From NCBI RefSeq assembly GCF_001995985.1, contig NZ_MUFC01000001.1:43178-107177 (forward strand): DNA of 64,000 nt, written 5' to 3'. Of the stretch, positions 182 to 9,152 are shown one piece after another (the first letter of the stretch is position 1; the number at the start of each line of letters is the position of its first letter). The notes under the pieces were generated by a model, which saw only the letters and a program-made list of their open reading frames with translations, did no database searches and was not told the origin of the DNA. The translations under genes were made by a program, and so were the position numbers. The DNA comes from Salinivibrio sharmensis (GTDB taxonomy: Bacteria; Pseudomonadota; Gammaproteobacteria; Enterobacterales; Vibrionaceae).

Positions 182-628
182 ATGACCAAAAGTCCTTTTA
201 TGGCAAGCCTTCAGCATGAGATCAGGCGACGAGGCTATGCGATCAAAACTGAGAATAGTTACCTATACTGGGTGCGCCGATTTATCCTTTTCCATCATAA
301 GCAGCATCCTAGAGAGCTCAGTGATGAGGATGTAAAAACGTTTCTGTCTTATTTGGCGAATGCAAAGCAAGTTTCACCGAACACACAAAAGGTTGCACTC
401 AATGCGCTGGCCTTTCTATACAACCAGTTTTTAGACCAGCCGTTAGGTAAGATTGCATTTAGTCCGTCCAAAAAATCGCCGCGAATTCCAGTTGTGCTCA
501 GTAAAGAAGAAGTTGCCAGAATTTTTACCTACCTTGGCGCAAGAGATAAGCTGATTTGTGGGCTTATGTACGGCAGTGGCCTACGCATCAATGAGTGCTT
601 GAGGTTACGTATTAAGGATTTGCTTTAA
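182..628 (+). pseudogene. Truncated integron-type tyrosine recombinase (IntI-like)
   Basis: The 148-residue product looks like the N-terminal half of an integron integrase, as in Vibrio IntIA, which are about 320 residues. It has the SAM-like core-binding domain (about residues 5-85) and then the start of the catalytic domain with the motif GSGLRINECLRLR, whose Arg135 is the first catalytic arginine. The reading stops right after RIKD, so the remaining catalytic residues, including the nucleophilic tyrosine, and the integron-specific insert are missing; it should be inactive. A good ribosome site (GGAGG) precedes the ATG. The stop codon touches an imperfect hairpin at 628-659, which may mark the breakpoint. 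No cassette array is seen downstream. The IntI assignment, rather than another tyrosine recombinase, is by sequence resemblance. Confidence 0.75.
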
Positions 629-823: not shown

Positions 824-914
824 TGGCGGAGAGATAGGGATTTGAACCCTAGAAGGGCTATTAACCCTTGCCGGTTTTCAAGACCGGTGCTTTCAACCAC
901 TCAGCCATCTCTCC
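824..914 (-). tRNA. tRNA-Ser (anticodon UGA)
   Basis: The minus strand reads as a class II tRNA of 91 bases. The acceptor arm begins GGAGAGATGG and ends with an encoded CCA. The anticodon loop CTTGAAA contains UGA, which reads UCA-family serine codons. A long variable arm follows, as expected for tRNA-Ser, and the T-arm contains GGTTCAAATCC. It stands alone in front of fabV. tRNA genes are common integration sites, and a broken integrase gene lies about 200 bases away, but no duplicated tRNA end was seen. Confidence 0.96.
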
Positions 915-1053: not shown

Positions 1054-2256
1054 TTAGATGTTTTCGACATCAAATTCCACTACCGGGCTCACGTCTGCGT
1101 CGTAGTCGACGCCTTCAACGCCAAAGCCAAATAGCTTCAAGAACTCGGCTTTGTATTCGTTGTAGTCGGTCAGCTCAGTGAGGTTCTCTGTGGTGATCTG
1201 TGGCCACAGGTCACGACAGTGCTGCTGAATATCCTCGCGCAGCTCTAGGTCGTCTAAACGCAGGCGACGCTCGCTATCTACCTCTGGCTCGCTGCCATCG
1301 GCTTGATACAGGCGCTGAGTAAACATGCGATAGATTTGCTCCATGCAGCCCTCATGGACGCCTTCTTCGCGCATTTTCTTGAACACCATGGCGATATAAA
1401 GCGGCATCACCGGGATCGCCGAGCTGGCTTGGGTGACCACGCTTTTCAGTACCGCCACGTTGGCGCTACCGCCTTTAGCGGCAAGTGTTTGGTTTAGCGC
1501 ATTGGCAGCACGGTCTAAGTCCATTTTCGCTTTTCCTAGCGCGCCTTCCCAATAGATTGGCCAGGTAAGCTCTGTACCAATGTAGCTGTAAGCAACAGTT
1601 TTGCAGCCTTCAGCAAGGACACCGGCGTCATTAAGGGCGTTGATCCAAAGCTCCCAGTCTTCGCCGCCCATTACGGTAACGGTGTCTTGAATTTCTTGCT
1701 CGGTAGCCGGTTCAACGCTGGCTTCGATGATTTCATCTTTATTGGTGTCTACCGCGGTTGAGGTGTACGTCTCACCGATAGGTTTGAGTGACGAGCGCAC
1801 CAGCTCACCGCTGTCAGGTAGCTTACGTACTGGCGAGGCTAGCGAGTACACCACCATGTCGATTTGACCCAAGTCTTGTTTGATCAAATCAATCGTTTTT
1901 TGCTTGGCCTCATGCGAGAAGGCATCACCATTGAGGCTTTTTGAATACAGGCCTTCTTGCTTGGCAAACTTGTCGAACGCGGCTGAGTTATGCCAGCCTG
2001 CGGTGCCAGGCTTTTTCTCGGTGCCTGGTTTTTCAAAGAACACGCCAATAGTTGCAGCGCCGCCACCAAAGGCTGCCGCAATGCGTGAGGACAAGCCATA
2101 GCCGCTGGAGGCACCCACAACCAGTACACGCTTAGGCGCATTGGCAATCGGGCCTTGCGCTTTGGTGTAGTCAATTTGCTCTTTTACGTTGGCTTCACAA
2201 CCAACGGGATGTGTCGTCGTACAGATAAATCCACGAATTTTAGGTTTGATGATCAT
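1054..2256 (-). CDS. fabV: Enoyl-ACP reductase FabV
   Basis: FabV is the NADH-dependent trans-2-enoyl-ACP reductase that performs the last step of each fatty-acid elongation cycle; the family is known for resistance to triclosan. The protein of 400 residues matches the family length. It has the cofactor-binding stretch [12 protein letters not shown] and the catalytic Tyr-x8-Lys motif, [10 protein letters not shown], at residues 235 and 244. An upstream in-frame TTG exists, but the ATG at 2256 has GAGGG nine bases upstream and puts the catalytic residues at the usual FabV numbering. It stands upstream of a fadE homologue and a PsrA-like regulator, as in Vibrio cholerae. A terminator follows. 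Confidence 0.95.
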
Positions 2257-4934: not shown

Positions 4935-5621
4935 CTACTCCGCTTGTGACTCCGTCGCGAAGGCGAGCACTTGCCCCTGCTGTGCCATTGCCGCCGGTTT
5001 GGCGTTCATCCCTGATGCTAGATACGGAATTAAGCGGTCAACGATCGCTTCGGTATCAAGGGTGCGACCAAAATCGTTTTCGGCAATATCACGCAACGCT
5101 TCGCTAGACGCCATGGTGAAAATCGCCGCCCCAAGGGTGAAGTGTAAATGCCAAAACACCGCCTCTGACGTCAGTGCGGGGTTGGCTTTGCGTACCGCTT
5201 GGTTAAACAGCGACAGCACGTGCTCGTAACGGGTGGTGATAAACCAACGTAAATGGCCTTGTACATCGGTATAACCGCGGCCAATCAGCTGCATAAAGGT
5301 GGCTGCGCCATGTGGCCGATACGCGTCAAGCGCAAGCACTGGCTGTTTTGCGCATGAGAATACTTGCTCCATCGTGCAATCTGGTCGCACTAAGAGTGCT
5401 TGTAGCTGCTCACCGAGCGCTGGCATAAACGCTTCGAGGTAGCGTCCGAGCACTGCCCGCACCAGTGACTTTTTGTCGCCAAAGTGATAGTTCACTGAGG
5501 CAAGGTTGACGCCAGCCTTGCTGGTAATCGTGCGTAATGACGTTTCTTTAAACCCGTGCTCGGCGAAGAGCTGCTCCGCGGCATCCAGAATTTTTGCTTT
5601 GGTGTCGCCTCGTCCTGCCAT
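4935..5621 (-). CDS. psrA: TetR-family fatty-acid regulator, PsrA-like
   Basis: A 228-residue TetR-type repressor. Residues about 8-55 form the helix-turn-helix domain (AEQLFAEHGFKETSLRTIT), ending in the signature VNYHFGDKKSL. The C-terminal ligand domain resembles that of PsrA, a sensor of long-chain fatty acyl signals. The ATG is preceded by AGGTGA. Its position directly upstream of an acyl-CoA dehydrogenase is the same as in V. cholerae. A perfect 6+6 palindrome (TTAAAC-GCTT-GTTTAA) sits 17 bases before the start codon and suggests autorepression. The PsrA name is by resemblance and context; another TetR fatty-acid regulator is possible. Confidence 0.82.
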   Translation of the reverse strand: MAGRGDTKAKILDAAEQLFAEHGFKETSLRTITSKAGVNLASVNYHFGDKKSLVRAVLGRYLEAFMPALGEQLQALLVRPDCTMEQVFSCAKQPVLALDAYRPHGAATFMQLIGRGYTDVQGHLRWFITTRYEHVLSLFNQAVRKANPALTSEAVFWHLHFTLGAAIFTMASSEALRDIAENDFGRTLDTEAIVDRLIPYLASGMNAKPAAMAQQGQVLAFATESQAE

Positions 5622-5912: not shown

Positions 5913-5941
5913 GGAACCCATTCGCATTTCTGGTAGTCACA
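5913..5941 (+). promoter_or_regulatory. Sigma-E-type promoter of left sRNA
   Basis: A -35 element GGAACCC (5913-5919) and a -10 element GTCACA (5936-5941), 16 bases apart, fit the RpoE pattern GGAACTT / TCAAA-like. The predicted start, six bases past the -10, is the G of GCCACTGC at 5948, exactly where a RybB-type RNA would begin. Confidence 0.6.
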
Positions 5942-5947
5942 CCTTGT

Positions 5948-6012
5948 GCCACTGCTTTTTCTAGAAGACTTTTCTTCTATGCCCACTCGCCGTTTGCTTG
6001 TGGGCTTTTTTA
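5948..6012 (+). ncRNA. Candidate sigma-E-dependent sRNA, RybB/MicV-like
   Basis: The predicted 65-nt RNA starts GCCACTGCTTTTTCTA. Its first 12 bases equal the 5' seed of enterobacterial RybB (GCCACUGCUUUU), which pairs with outer-membrane protein mRNAs. Next comes a hairpin, TAGAAG (5962-5967) with CTTCTA (5974-5979). It ends with an intrinsic terminator, GCCCAC (5981-5986) with GTGGGC (6000-6005), followed by seven T. A sigma-E-like promoter lies at the right distance. V. cholerae has sigma-E sRNAs that share this seed domain (MicV, VrrA), and VrrA lies next to the TetR gene VC1741 there. The identity as a MicV/RybB homologue is inferred from the seed, promoter and terminator. Confidence 0.7.
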
Positions 6013-6119: not shown

Positions 6120-8834
6120 ATGGAATCCTTACTCCTCTTGGTGTTTGTCGCCAGTTTGGTGATGCTCATTGGTGGCATTTGTGGCCTCTCGGCCCTATTC
6201 AAAGTTAACGCACTCAATCGAGAGCTCTCGGAGGTGCGCCATACCCTCTCCCAGTTGCAATCGAAAGCGGACGCTGACGCGATGCCGACGTCCACTCATG
6301 CCAACCACACGGCTGAGGCTGATACGGAGCCGGCTGAGTCTGGCCGCGATACAGACGCTGCTATGGTATCGCGTGATAGCCACCCATTAACGCAGGAAGC
6401 GCTCACCTCATCGACCCGGCATGCGCCATCTAACACAGAGCCCAGTGATGCAGAGCCGGTCGCCACCAACGCAGCCCATACCGCCTCTGACGCGCAACCA
6501 TCAGGCGATAACCGTCATCGTCTCGCTTGGCTTGAGCGCGCGAAACAACAGTGGCTGGTTTGGAGTGGCGCCGGTATTTTTACCCTCGGCGGACTTTTCT
6601 TAGTTTCCTATCTGATCAGCGAAGGTTATTTTCCTCCTCTGGCCCGCCTTGGCTTGGGAGCGCTGTTTGGCGTCGGCTTAATTGTTGGCAGTGAATGGCT
6701 GCACGATAAGTTGCGCCGCTATACGCAAATTGATTGGCCGAGCTATGTACCCGCGGCCATTGCGAGTGCGGGCTTTATCAGCTTGTTTGGCCTGACCTTG
6801 ATGGCAGCGACGCCCTATCAGTTTATTTCCGAGCCTGTCGCGGTTGTGATGCTGGCGCTGATCTCGCTCGCTGCGACCTTCTACGGGCTTAGGTTTGGCC
6901 CGCTGCTGACCGTGGTCGGGCTCATCGGTGCCTATGGCGCGCCATTGTTCTCTACCAGTGCCACCCCCAGCTACGGGTTGCTCGCCAGTTATTTCTTACT
7001 GGTCGCTGCCGCCATCACCTATGTGGCGCAACGTGTCGAGCGCCGATGGCTATGGTATAGCTTGTGGGGGATGCATCTTGCTTGGCTATTTGCTTTTGCC
7101 CATTTTTCGGTGCCATTGCTTATCGTCACCGGGTTTGCTGTCGGCTCGGTCTACGTGCTGATTGCCGTACCCAGATTGGGTTGGTTGCTTAAACCAACAT
7201 CTGACGCGCCACTGTCTTGGCGCACTCTTGTCGATATTCGAACTTGGCACCATCACGCACTCGACACCTGGCTGATGCTGGCGATTATGTTTATTGCCTC
7301 CACCGCAGCGTTTTCTTTACCGCTCACGGTCGGGATACCATTGATCGCCGCGTTGGTGGCTTGGCTTTATCTCGCGCCGCTTTTCTCCGCTCGCTGGGAT
7401 GCATGGCCGGTGCTGGGCTTAGCTTGGGTCGCTCTCTGGTTATGGTTCGGTGACCTTGCCCGCGACCCGCTTGCCCAACAGGTTGGCTTGGGGATGGGTG
7501 TCATTACCCTGCTCTATGGCTTAGCCCTAGGTAAACGGCCACCGCAACGTCTCCATTTTATCTGGCTAGCGTGCCTGGCCACGCCCTTTATGGTGAGCCT
7601 CAACGCAATGGTCACAGGCGCGTTTTGGGGGGGAACGCTTGCGTACGCGTCTAGCGCACCGTTATGGGCAGCTTGCCTCGCCGGTGGTGGCGCGGTGTTA
7701 GCGGCCTATACGCGTCATTTTAAAGGTAACGATCAGGCCCATATTCTGGCACGATTAAGCCTGTGGTGTGGCGTCAATGCCCACCTGGCGCTCGCGTTAA
7801 CGTTGCTGCTGAGCGATTACGCCCTGACCTTGGCCTTGACCGCGCAAGCCGTGGTGATGCTTTGGCTTACCCATCAATACCGGATAGCGCTCGCCAATTG
7901 GGTGATCCAAGCACTGATCAGCGTGGTGCTCGCACGCGCGACCTTGTTATTGCTCGCCACCCATCATATGGCATCACTGCCAGACACATTATGGCTTTAT
8001 CCGTCGCTTGGAATGTTGATTTATGCTGGTCAGCGCTGGGTACAAAACCACACACTGCCCGCTTGGCTCACTGGCGCGCAACTGCAACTCGCTGCGCTGT
8101 GGCTAACCAGTGCATCACTGTGGCTCTGTGATCTTCAAGGACTGACCAGCGTGATGCACTCAGTTTCGGGCGCAGTGGTCATGAGCATGAACTGGTTATT
8201 ATTGGCGTGTGTGTATCTTTATCGTGCTCGCGCCGCGCAGACGTTCGCGTTTTTGTACCGTATCGGTGGGATCGCCCTCTTAACCTTAAGTGCACTCATC
8301 CAGTTTGTTCTCTTTTTCGAGCATAATCCTTACATTGAGACGGTCTCGATTGGAGACTCGCCGCTTACCAGTTTGCTCTGGCCTTGGTGGGGTGTTCCCT
8401 TACTGGCTTGCGTATGGTTGGCGAAATGGGGGTATCCATCGCTCCCCGTGCCAAAGGCCCGAGTGCAAACAGCGGCCAGCACCTGTGCCGCGGTGTTTGG
8501 TTTTTTGCTGGTTAACGGTTTGATCCGTCAGGCTTGGCAAGGCGATACCATTGCCCTGTCACAACTAACCTCACATGCAGAGCTGTATACCTACTCATTG
8601 GTATGGTTGGCAATAGGGAGTTTGAGCTTGCTGGGGGGCTACTGGCAGCAATCGGTACGCATGCAGCAGGGCGCAATGGCGGTGTTGGCGCTAGTAATCC
8701 TGAAAGTGTTCCTGGTTGATATGGCAAGCTTAGAGGGACTGATGCGAGCATTGTCCTTTATTGGCCTTGGGCTTTGCTTGGTGGCGTTGGGAGGATTGTT
8801 CCAATGGCTCAAGCAACGGCAATGGGCCGCCTAG
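6120..8834 (+). CDS. DUF2339 multi-spanning membrane protein
   Basis: A 904-residue inner-membrane protein of the DUF2339 family, whose function is not known. Residues 4-26 form one membrane segment. Then comes a hydrophilic, Ala/Thr/Asp-rich, low-complexity stretch (about 48-135). From about 145 to the end there are more than twenty hydrophobic segments without a catalytic motif that I can recognise. The start ATG has only a weak ribosome site. The gene lies between two candidate sigma-E-dependent sRNAs on the same strand, so an envelope role is conceivable, but this is inference from position. A hairpin follows the stop codon. Confidence 0.85.
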   Translation: MESLLLLVFVASLVMLIGGICGLSALFKVNALNRELSEVRHTLSQLQSKADADAMPTSTHANHTAEADTEPAESGRDTDAAMVSRDSHPLTQEALTSSTRHAPSNTEPSDAEPVATNAAHTASDAQPSGDNRHRLAWLERAKQQWLVWSGAGIFTLGGLFLVSYLISEGYFPPLARLGLGALFGVGLIVGSEWLHDKLRRYTQIDWPSYVPAAIASAGFISLFGLTLMAATPYQFISEPVAVVMLALISLAATFYGLRFGPLLTVVGLIGAYGAPLFSTSATPSYGLLASYFLLVAAAITYVAQRVERRWLWYSLWGMHLAWLFAFAHFSVPLLIVTGFAVGSVYVLIAVPRLGWLLKPTSDAPLSWRTLVDIRTWHHHALDTWLMLAIMFIASTAAFSLPLTVGIPLIAALVAWLYLAPLFSARWDAWPVLGLAWVALWLWFGDLARDPLAQQVGLGMGVITLLYGLALGKRPPQRLHFIWLACLATPFMVSLNAMVTGAFWGGTLAYASSAPLWAACLAGGGAVLAAYTRHFKGNDQAHILARLSLWCGVNAHLALALTLLLSDYALTLALTAQAVVMLWLTHQYRIALANWVIQALISVVLARATLLLLATHHMASLPDTLWLYPSLGMLIYAGQRWVQNHTLPAWLTGAQLQLAALWLTSASLWLCDLQGLTSVMHSVSGAVVMSMNWLLLACVYLYRARAAQTFAFLYRIGGIALLTLSALIQFVLFFEHNPYIETVSIGDSPLTSLLWPWWGVPLLACVWLAKWGYPSLPVPKARVQTAASTCAAVFGFLLVNGLIRQAWQGDTIALSQLTSHAELYTYSLVWLAIGSLSLLGGYWQQSVRMQQGAMAVLALVILKVFLVDMASLEGLMRALSFIGLGLCLVALGGLFQWLKQRQWAA

Positions 8835-8973: not shown

Positions 8974-9002
8974 GGAACTTCTTTAAATTCGCCCAGTCCT
9001 AA
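8974..9002 (+). promoter_or_regulatory. Sigma-E-type promoter of right sRNA
   Basis: GGAACTT (8974-8980) equals the RpoE -35 consensus. After a 16-base spacer comes TCCTAA (8997-9002), close to the -10 element TCTAA/TCTGA. A T-rich stretch lies just upstream, as in many sigma-E promoters. Confidence 0.7.
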
Positions 9003-9007
9003 TGGGT

Positions 9008-9152
9008 GCATCGGTAAGAAATGCCTTATCCCCCTCAGAACGTGAGGGAGCATGATTCCTCTTTCTTTCCGACCTGCTGCTGCTTTTTCTACTTACTTTA
9101 GAGTTTGTTTGTCTCTACCTTTATTTTTGCCCACCTTGTGTGGGCTTTTTTT
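9008..9152 (+). ncRNA. Candidate sigma-E-dependent sRNA, VrrA-like
   Basis: The RNA predicted from the promoter is about 145 nt, close to the roughly 140 nt of V. cholerae VrrA. It contains a hairpin CCCTCA (9032-9037) with TGAGGG (9043-9048) and a pyrimidine-rich ATTCCTCTTTCTTTCC tract able to pair with ribosome sites. It also has an internal seed CTGCTTTTTCTA (9080-9091) that is identical to bases 5-16 of the left sRNA. The terminator is GCCCAC (9129-9134) with GTGGGC (9140-9145) plus seven T. Its last bases overlap the stop codon of the convergent gene. VrrA identity is inferred from length, promoter, seed and neighbourhood; I cannot align it. Confidence 0.68.

Follow-up and report, generated by a model that had tools for sequence, protein, structure and literature searches.

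A predicted MicV/RybB-type small RNA with a sigma-E-type promoter beside psrA in Salinivibrio sharmensis

Results

The psrA-side locus and the anatomy of RNA1

The window analyzed here is a 64,000-nucleotide stretch of DNA from Salinivibrio sharmensis, whose genome comprises 3.33 Mb in 40 contigs. It contains a gene for a PsrA-like TetR regulator (4935-5621, minus strand; Pfam TetR_N and TetR_C_30), which we take to be psrA, and, diverging from it on the plus strand, a predicted small RNA (RNA1, 5948-6011), a DUF2339 membrane-protein gene (6120-8834; Pfam DUF2339, 257.5 bits), and a second predicted small RNA (RNA2). When the whole window was searched with Rfam at the gathering threshold, a tRNA (827-914, minus strand) was the sole call; near it lies an open reading frame (182-628, plus strand) that by eye resembles the N-terminal region of a tyrosine recombinase/integrase.

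Upstream of RNA1 stand a sigma-E-type -35 box, GGAACCC (5913-5919, plus strand), and -10 box, GTCACA (5936-5941, plus strand), separated by a 16-base spacer, with six of seven and six of six columns, respectively, invariant in eight Salinivibrio genomes; a G at 5948 follows after 6 bases beyond GTCACA. Direct reading of these letters confirmed the initial annotation, in which this promoter had been taken to point to a start at 5948. The RNA predicted from there, about 64 nucleotides long (5948-6011, plus strand), is supported by our model R1 (below), its fold, and its conservation. It begins GCCACTGCTTTTTC, and the fold leaves the first 14 bases open. The 5' seed GCCACUGCUUUUUCUA occupies 5948-5963, and its first 12 bases (GCCACTGCTTTT) are, as had been claimed, identical to those of the annotated rybB of E. 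coli K-12; the 13th is T in RNA1 and C in E. coli rybB. With three occurrences of GCCACTGCTTTT genome-wide (one for a reversed-pattern control), the seed by itself is too common to be distinctive. The hairpin that had been described as 6 bp long is present, with a stem of 7 bp by folding (5962-5979, plus strand; 5962-5968 pairing with 5973-5979), and 43 of the 44 aligned RNAs, folded individually, form a hairpin of 4 bp or more at this place. The intrinsic terminator (5981-6011, plus strand), likewise described earlier, consists of a stem of 5981-5986 with 6000-6005 followed by T's and recurs in all 44. The fold energy of RNA1 is -19.6 kcal/mol (z -3.96).

Conservation of the promoter and the RNA

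Each of the seven other Salinivibrio genomes searched contains the RNA1 locus (E 1.5e-37 or better). Across the eight Salinivibrio sequences, invariant columns number 14/14 in the seed, 17/19 in the hairpin, and 20/24 in the terminator stem and loop, and 6/16 in the promoter spacer, 31/165 upstream, and 13/95 downstream. Conserved boxes and RNA, with a variable spacer and variable flanks, is the pattern that would be expected of a promoter plus a functional RNA. A search of the genome collection for the promoter-plus-seed pattern returned 70 stretches, 39 of them in Vibrionaceae (Salinivibrio, Photobacterium, Grimontia, Enterovibrio, Thaumasiovibrio, and one Vibrio sp.), and a PsrA homologue adjoins the RNA in every one of these 39; the remaining 31 are scattered, and we take them to be chance matches.

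To follow the RNA beyond this pattern, we used a model, R1, built from 44 RNAs. RNA1, itself a member of the training set, scores 69.5 bits (E 4e-15), and in eight of the nine pairs of the consensus terminator stem at least one relative is changed on both sides. With a limit of E 0.01, R1 matched 283 of the 296 Vibrionaceae genomes, a count that takes in genomes used to build R1 as well as weak matches; 273 matched at 1e-4 or better. In the S. sharmensis genome, the matches ranking next below RNA1 (27.7 and 27.0 bits; E 0.002-0.003) look like ordinary terminators, so matches near E 0.01 elsewhere may be terminators as well. PsrA is adjacent in all of the 30 best R1 loci. R1 also recognized E. 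coli RybB (35.8 bits, E 5.7e-7), the RybB-type RNAs of two further loci, L115 and L117, and, at 50.6 to 56.8 bits, 13 RNAs beside argH that were not among the 44 used to build it.

Because the pattern-found loci had been chosen by their promoter, the promoter was examined at 50 loci found by R1 and not by promoter, namely the 30 best R1 matches and 20 hand-picked across genera, the 13 argH-side loci being among the latter. GAAC-N17-19-GTC stands upstream in 49 of these 50, compared with 71 of 10,000 random positions. Together with the position of all 39 Vibrionaceae pattern matches beside PsrA, this argues that the combination of putative promoter and seed is more than chance.

The 13 argH-side RNAs come from Vibrio-like genomes (group g12, whose genus label is our inference), where every one of the 13 genomes sampled has a MicV-like RNA immediately following argH (L158-L166 and L173-L176); no PsrA was found in the 6 kb fetched at these loci. 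A RybB-type RNA above the Rfam cut-off (42 bits) was also seen at L117, in a genome of another family (G046; 1498-1581, plus strand), with a PsrA homologue of 64% identity beside it.

The initial annotation had proposed covariance searches against the RybB, MicV, and VrrA families. RNA1 missed the Rfam cut-offs for RybB and VrrA, and R1 linked it to its relatives. RNA1 reached 17.1 bits against RybB (RF00110; E 0.22 for 181 bases, cut-off 40) and 14.9 bits against VrrA (RF01456; cut-off 50), and therefore belongs to the RybB/MicV type but to neither of these Rfam families in its present model. In a search of 61 relatives, RF01456 gave no match at E 0.001 under strict filters in the eight Salinivibrio genomes, and RF00110 gave one match there, of 17.3 bits, in G002 and elsewhere in its genome.

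A second predicted small RNA and alternative readings of RNA1

Downstream of the DUF2339 gene lies RNA2, which the initial annotation had not mentioned. Its putative promoter consists of a -35 box, GGAACTT (8974-8980, plus strand), and a -10 box, GTCCTA (8996-9001, plus strand), 15 bases apart, with all seven and all six columns invariant in the eight Salinivibrio genomes. The predicted RNA (about 9007-9152, plus strand, the start being approximate) is VrrA-like in having a long 5' hairpin, an internal seed, and a terminator; the seed CUGCUUUUUCUA (9080-9091, plus strand) has the same letters as nucleotides 5 to 16 of RNA1. RNA2 is present in all eight Salinivibrio genomes, with 117 of 146 columns invariant (28/94 upstream and 32/67 in the coding stretch downstream), distributed as 16/16 in the seed region (9075-9090), 23/24 in the terminator, and 44/67 in the 5' hairpin, and its fold has a z of -3.47. 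No VrrA match to RNA2 was listed in Rfam up to E 10. A model of the VrrA-like RNAs, R2, built without Salinivibrio, gave RNA2 14.8 bits (E 0.17) with matching ends, a weak score that is not decisive since the automatic structure of R2 had four pairs; the VrrA label is therefore based on the location, promoter, internal seed, and overall form of RNA2.

The DUF2339 gene separates the two RNAs in six of the eight Salinivibrio genomes. It is not there in G001 and G006, where a second seed follows 275 and 297 bases after the RNA1 start, and its presence or absence is an insertion or loss within Salinivibrio. Over 75 distinct loci, a second promoter and terminator were found within 520 bases in 32, compared with 190 of 3,750 at random, by a loose terminator pattern. 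This count misses some cases (a second seed is present in L056, L058, and L089, which were left uncounted), and the 43 uncounted loci include the 13 argH-side loci and the six Salinivibrio loci with DUF2339 in between; among the 13 hand-picked Vibrio-like loci no second promoter was found. A similar pair of RNAs lies beside fabV in four g10 genomes.

The place of RNA1 would fit a shortened orthologue of V. cholerae VrrA. The passages of PMC2628432 drawn on here put vrrA between vc1741 and vc1743, and psrA, in matching orientation, adjoins four loci that exceed the RF01456 cut-off (L105-L108) and a weaker match (L112), from which it follows that the RNA1 locus is the vrrA locus. However, all eight Salinivibrio genomes, the window included, have a distinct VrrA-like RNA farther downstream, and in G015, G020, and G030 the two kinds of RNA occur in tandem, the RNA1 type next to psrA and the VrrA type after it, each with a sigma-E-type promoter, which argues that RNA1 is not VrrA. 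The seed of RNA1 is, moreover, at its 5' end, and its RF01456 score falls far below the cut-off. We therefore consider this orthology very unlikely.

Less probable still is a role for RNA1 as leader or attenuator for DUF2339. The two lie on one strand, with 108 bases between the end of RNA1 and the gene, but the gene does not follow in the two Salinivibrio genomes named above, where the RNA is conserved, and the DUF2339 protein of the window has no match in 34 non-Salinivibrio loci, in all of which the RNA is conserved; the pairs of the terminator also covary. A chance likeness of seed-like and promoter-like strings, or a short coding frame, is the least probable reading: the seed alone is found three times in the genome and an ATG lies inside RNA1 at 5979, but any ATG occurs in only 23 of the 44 aligned RNAs, L075 (Salinivibrio proteolyticus) lacks that of 5979, and the synteny of all 39 pattern-found Vibrionaceae loci and the conservation footprint in Salinivibrio speak strongly against it.

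Sigma-E and a predicted porin target

The genome encodes RpoE (332 bits; cut-off 236), followed by two open reading frames that presumably encode RseA and RseB, and GGAACTT-N16-TCGAAA was read by eye upstream of rpoE. For possible targets of RNA1, six outer-membrane genes, identified through matches to Porin_4 and OmpA_membrane, were examined. The best predicted target is a Porin_4 gene (L191; G000:C1:190701-191702), whose leader reads TAGAAAAGGCAGTGG, then ATTAACC, then ATG. Nucleotides 2 to 16 of RNA1 are predicted to form 15 continuous pairs (one G-U) with positions -22 to -8 of this mRNA relative to its start codon, at -23.9 kcal/mol, and the internal seed of RNA2 could pair with the same site at a predicted -20.4 kcal/mol. 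The initial annotation had suggested a target prediction against outer-membrane protein mRNAs, and it came out in favor of this porin, which ranks above all of 117 other gene starts (mean -11.6, standard deviation 3.1, best -20.6 kcal/mol); these include loci fetched for holding a seed complement, so the comparison is biased against the porin. The other five outer-membrane genes, examined over a wider region, gave -18.8, -15.0, -14.4, -8.9, and -7.7 kcal/mol, none above background. Exact 9-base complements of the seed were examined at 51 of 53 genome sites (the RNA1 gene included), and one lies near a plausible gene start, that of a gene which by eye is not evidently an outer-membrane protein gene. 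The L191 porin gave no match in the PDB at E 0.001.

The target site is itself conserved. In a search of 61 genomes, a single porin homologue was taken from each genome that matched, and of the resulting 29 homologues, 28 carry [AG]GCAGTGG shortly before the porin start (ATGAARAAR), with the leader sites reading GGCAGTGG or AGCAGTGG (L191, L247-L276). The sole homologue that lacks the site, in G017, comes from a genome that also lacks an R1 match; G009 and G026 keep the porin site and have no R1 match. Base 16 of the RNA is A and faces a T in the porin leader in all eight Salinivibrio genomes, and it is T and faces an A in all 11 other genomes with the target AAGAAAAGG and an RNA sequence read. 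This rule is broken by a mismatch in G018, and the targets of G027, G013, and G022 are of another length; the change looks like one event common by descent and hence is no statistical test.

Discussion

Our results lead us to propose that RNA1 is very probably a small RNA of the MicV/RybB class that would act by base pairing, be driven by sigma-E, and repress a porin. The seed, the promoter, the two hairpins, and the predicted porin target agree with one another and are conserved, and the original reading of a RybB/MicV-like RNA with a sigma-E-type promoter is upheld. We infer a sequence of events in which transcription, RpoE dependence, Hfq binding, and repression would be connected as follows. 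Envelope stress would free sigma-E (RpoE), which would then start transcription at 5948. The resulting RNA of about 64 nucleotides would keep its 5' end, GCCACUGCUUUUUC, single-stranded, and this end, helped by Hfq, would pair with mRNAs of outer-membrane proteins, above all that of the Porin_4 gene. RybB represses by covering the ribosome-binding site, and pairing of RNA1 at -22 to -8 may likewise cover the likely ribosome-binding site of the porin mRNA and stop its translation, such that porin synthesis would fall while the envelope recovers. In V. cholerae, the portion of PMC8359247 considered here reports unchanged ompU expression in a micV knockout under the conditions of those authors.

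By these findings, the RNA arm of the envelope stress response would reach into Salinivibrio, both of whose RNAs fall below the Rfam cut-offs; they also describe a porin target site that has been kept across much of the Vibrionaceae. They bear, too, on the relationship between two V. cholerae RNAs, MicV and VrrA, which share seed and targets according to the part of a review consulted (PMC7602753), as the common locus suggests a testable origin for the pair, namely as tandem neighbors. In titles and the openings of abstracts we found no statement of such an origin, which may nevertheless be known.

It is about evenly balanced, in our judgment, whether the psrA side represents an ancestral Vibrionaceae twin locus with two tandem, sigma-E-driven, seed-sharing RNAs, one of the MicV/RybB type with a 5' seed and the other of the VrrA type with an internal seed. 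Vibrio would then have kept VrrA there and the MicV type beside argH, and Salinivibrio would have kept both, mostly with DUF2339 in between; the RNA of G046 (L117) may even suggest that RybB, MicV, and VrrA come from one locus. This boldest form of a common origin is disfavored by the VrrA authors' own statement, in the passages of PMC2628432 used here, that VrrA and RybB are not homologous.

Among the known systems, E. coli RybB has in common with RNA1 the first 12 bases, with GCCACUGCUUUU at the 5' end if transcription begins where predicted, as well as the distance of 6 bases from the -10 box to the start and the overall plan. RybB is 79 nucleotides long, whereas RNA1 has 64, and E. coli rybB adjoins rcdA, whereas RNA1 adjoins psrA. 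RcdA was considered as a PsrA orthologue that would tie E. coli rybB to the psrA locus, and this candidate was rejected (27% over 70 N-terminal amino acids, E 0.001). VrrA has in common with RNA1 the psrA-side locus, a sigma-E-type promoter, and the letters of the seed; it is, however, about 140 nucleotides long, as given in the same part of PMC2628432, and carries its seed internally, in contrast to the 64 nucleotides and 5' seed of RNA1.

MicV is described in PMC7602753 and PMC8359247 as sigma-E dependent, as having its seed in common with VrrA, and as acting on outer-membrane protein genes; a table in PMC10840491 gives many reads for a MicV homologue in V. vulnificus cells. The argH-side RNAs found here, which are probably the published MicV, have a 5' seed, a hairpin, a terminator, and a sigma-E-type promoter, as RNA1 does. 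They begin ACCACUGC and adjoin argH, whereas RNA1 begins GCCACUGC and adjoins psrA. The 5' seed, hairpin, and terminator of RNA1 are homologous to those of the argH-side RNAs, and by this homology, as judged from sequence, the predicted RNA belongs to the MicV/RybB class.
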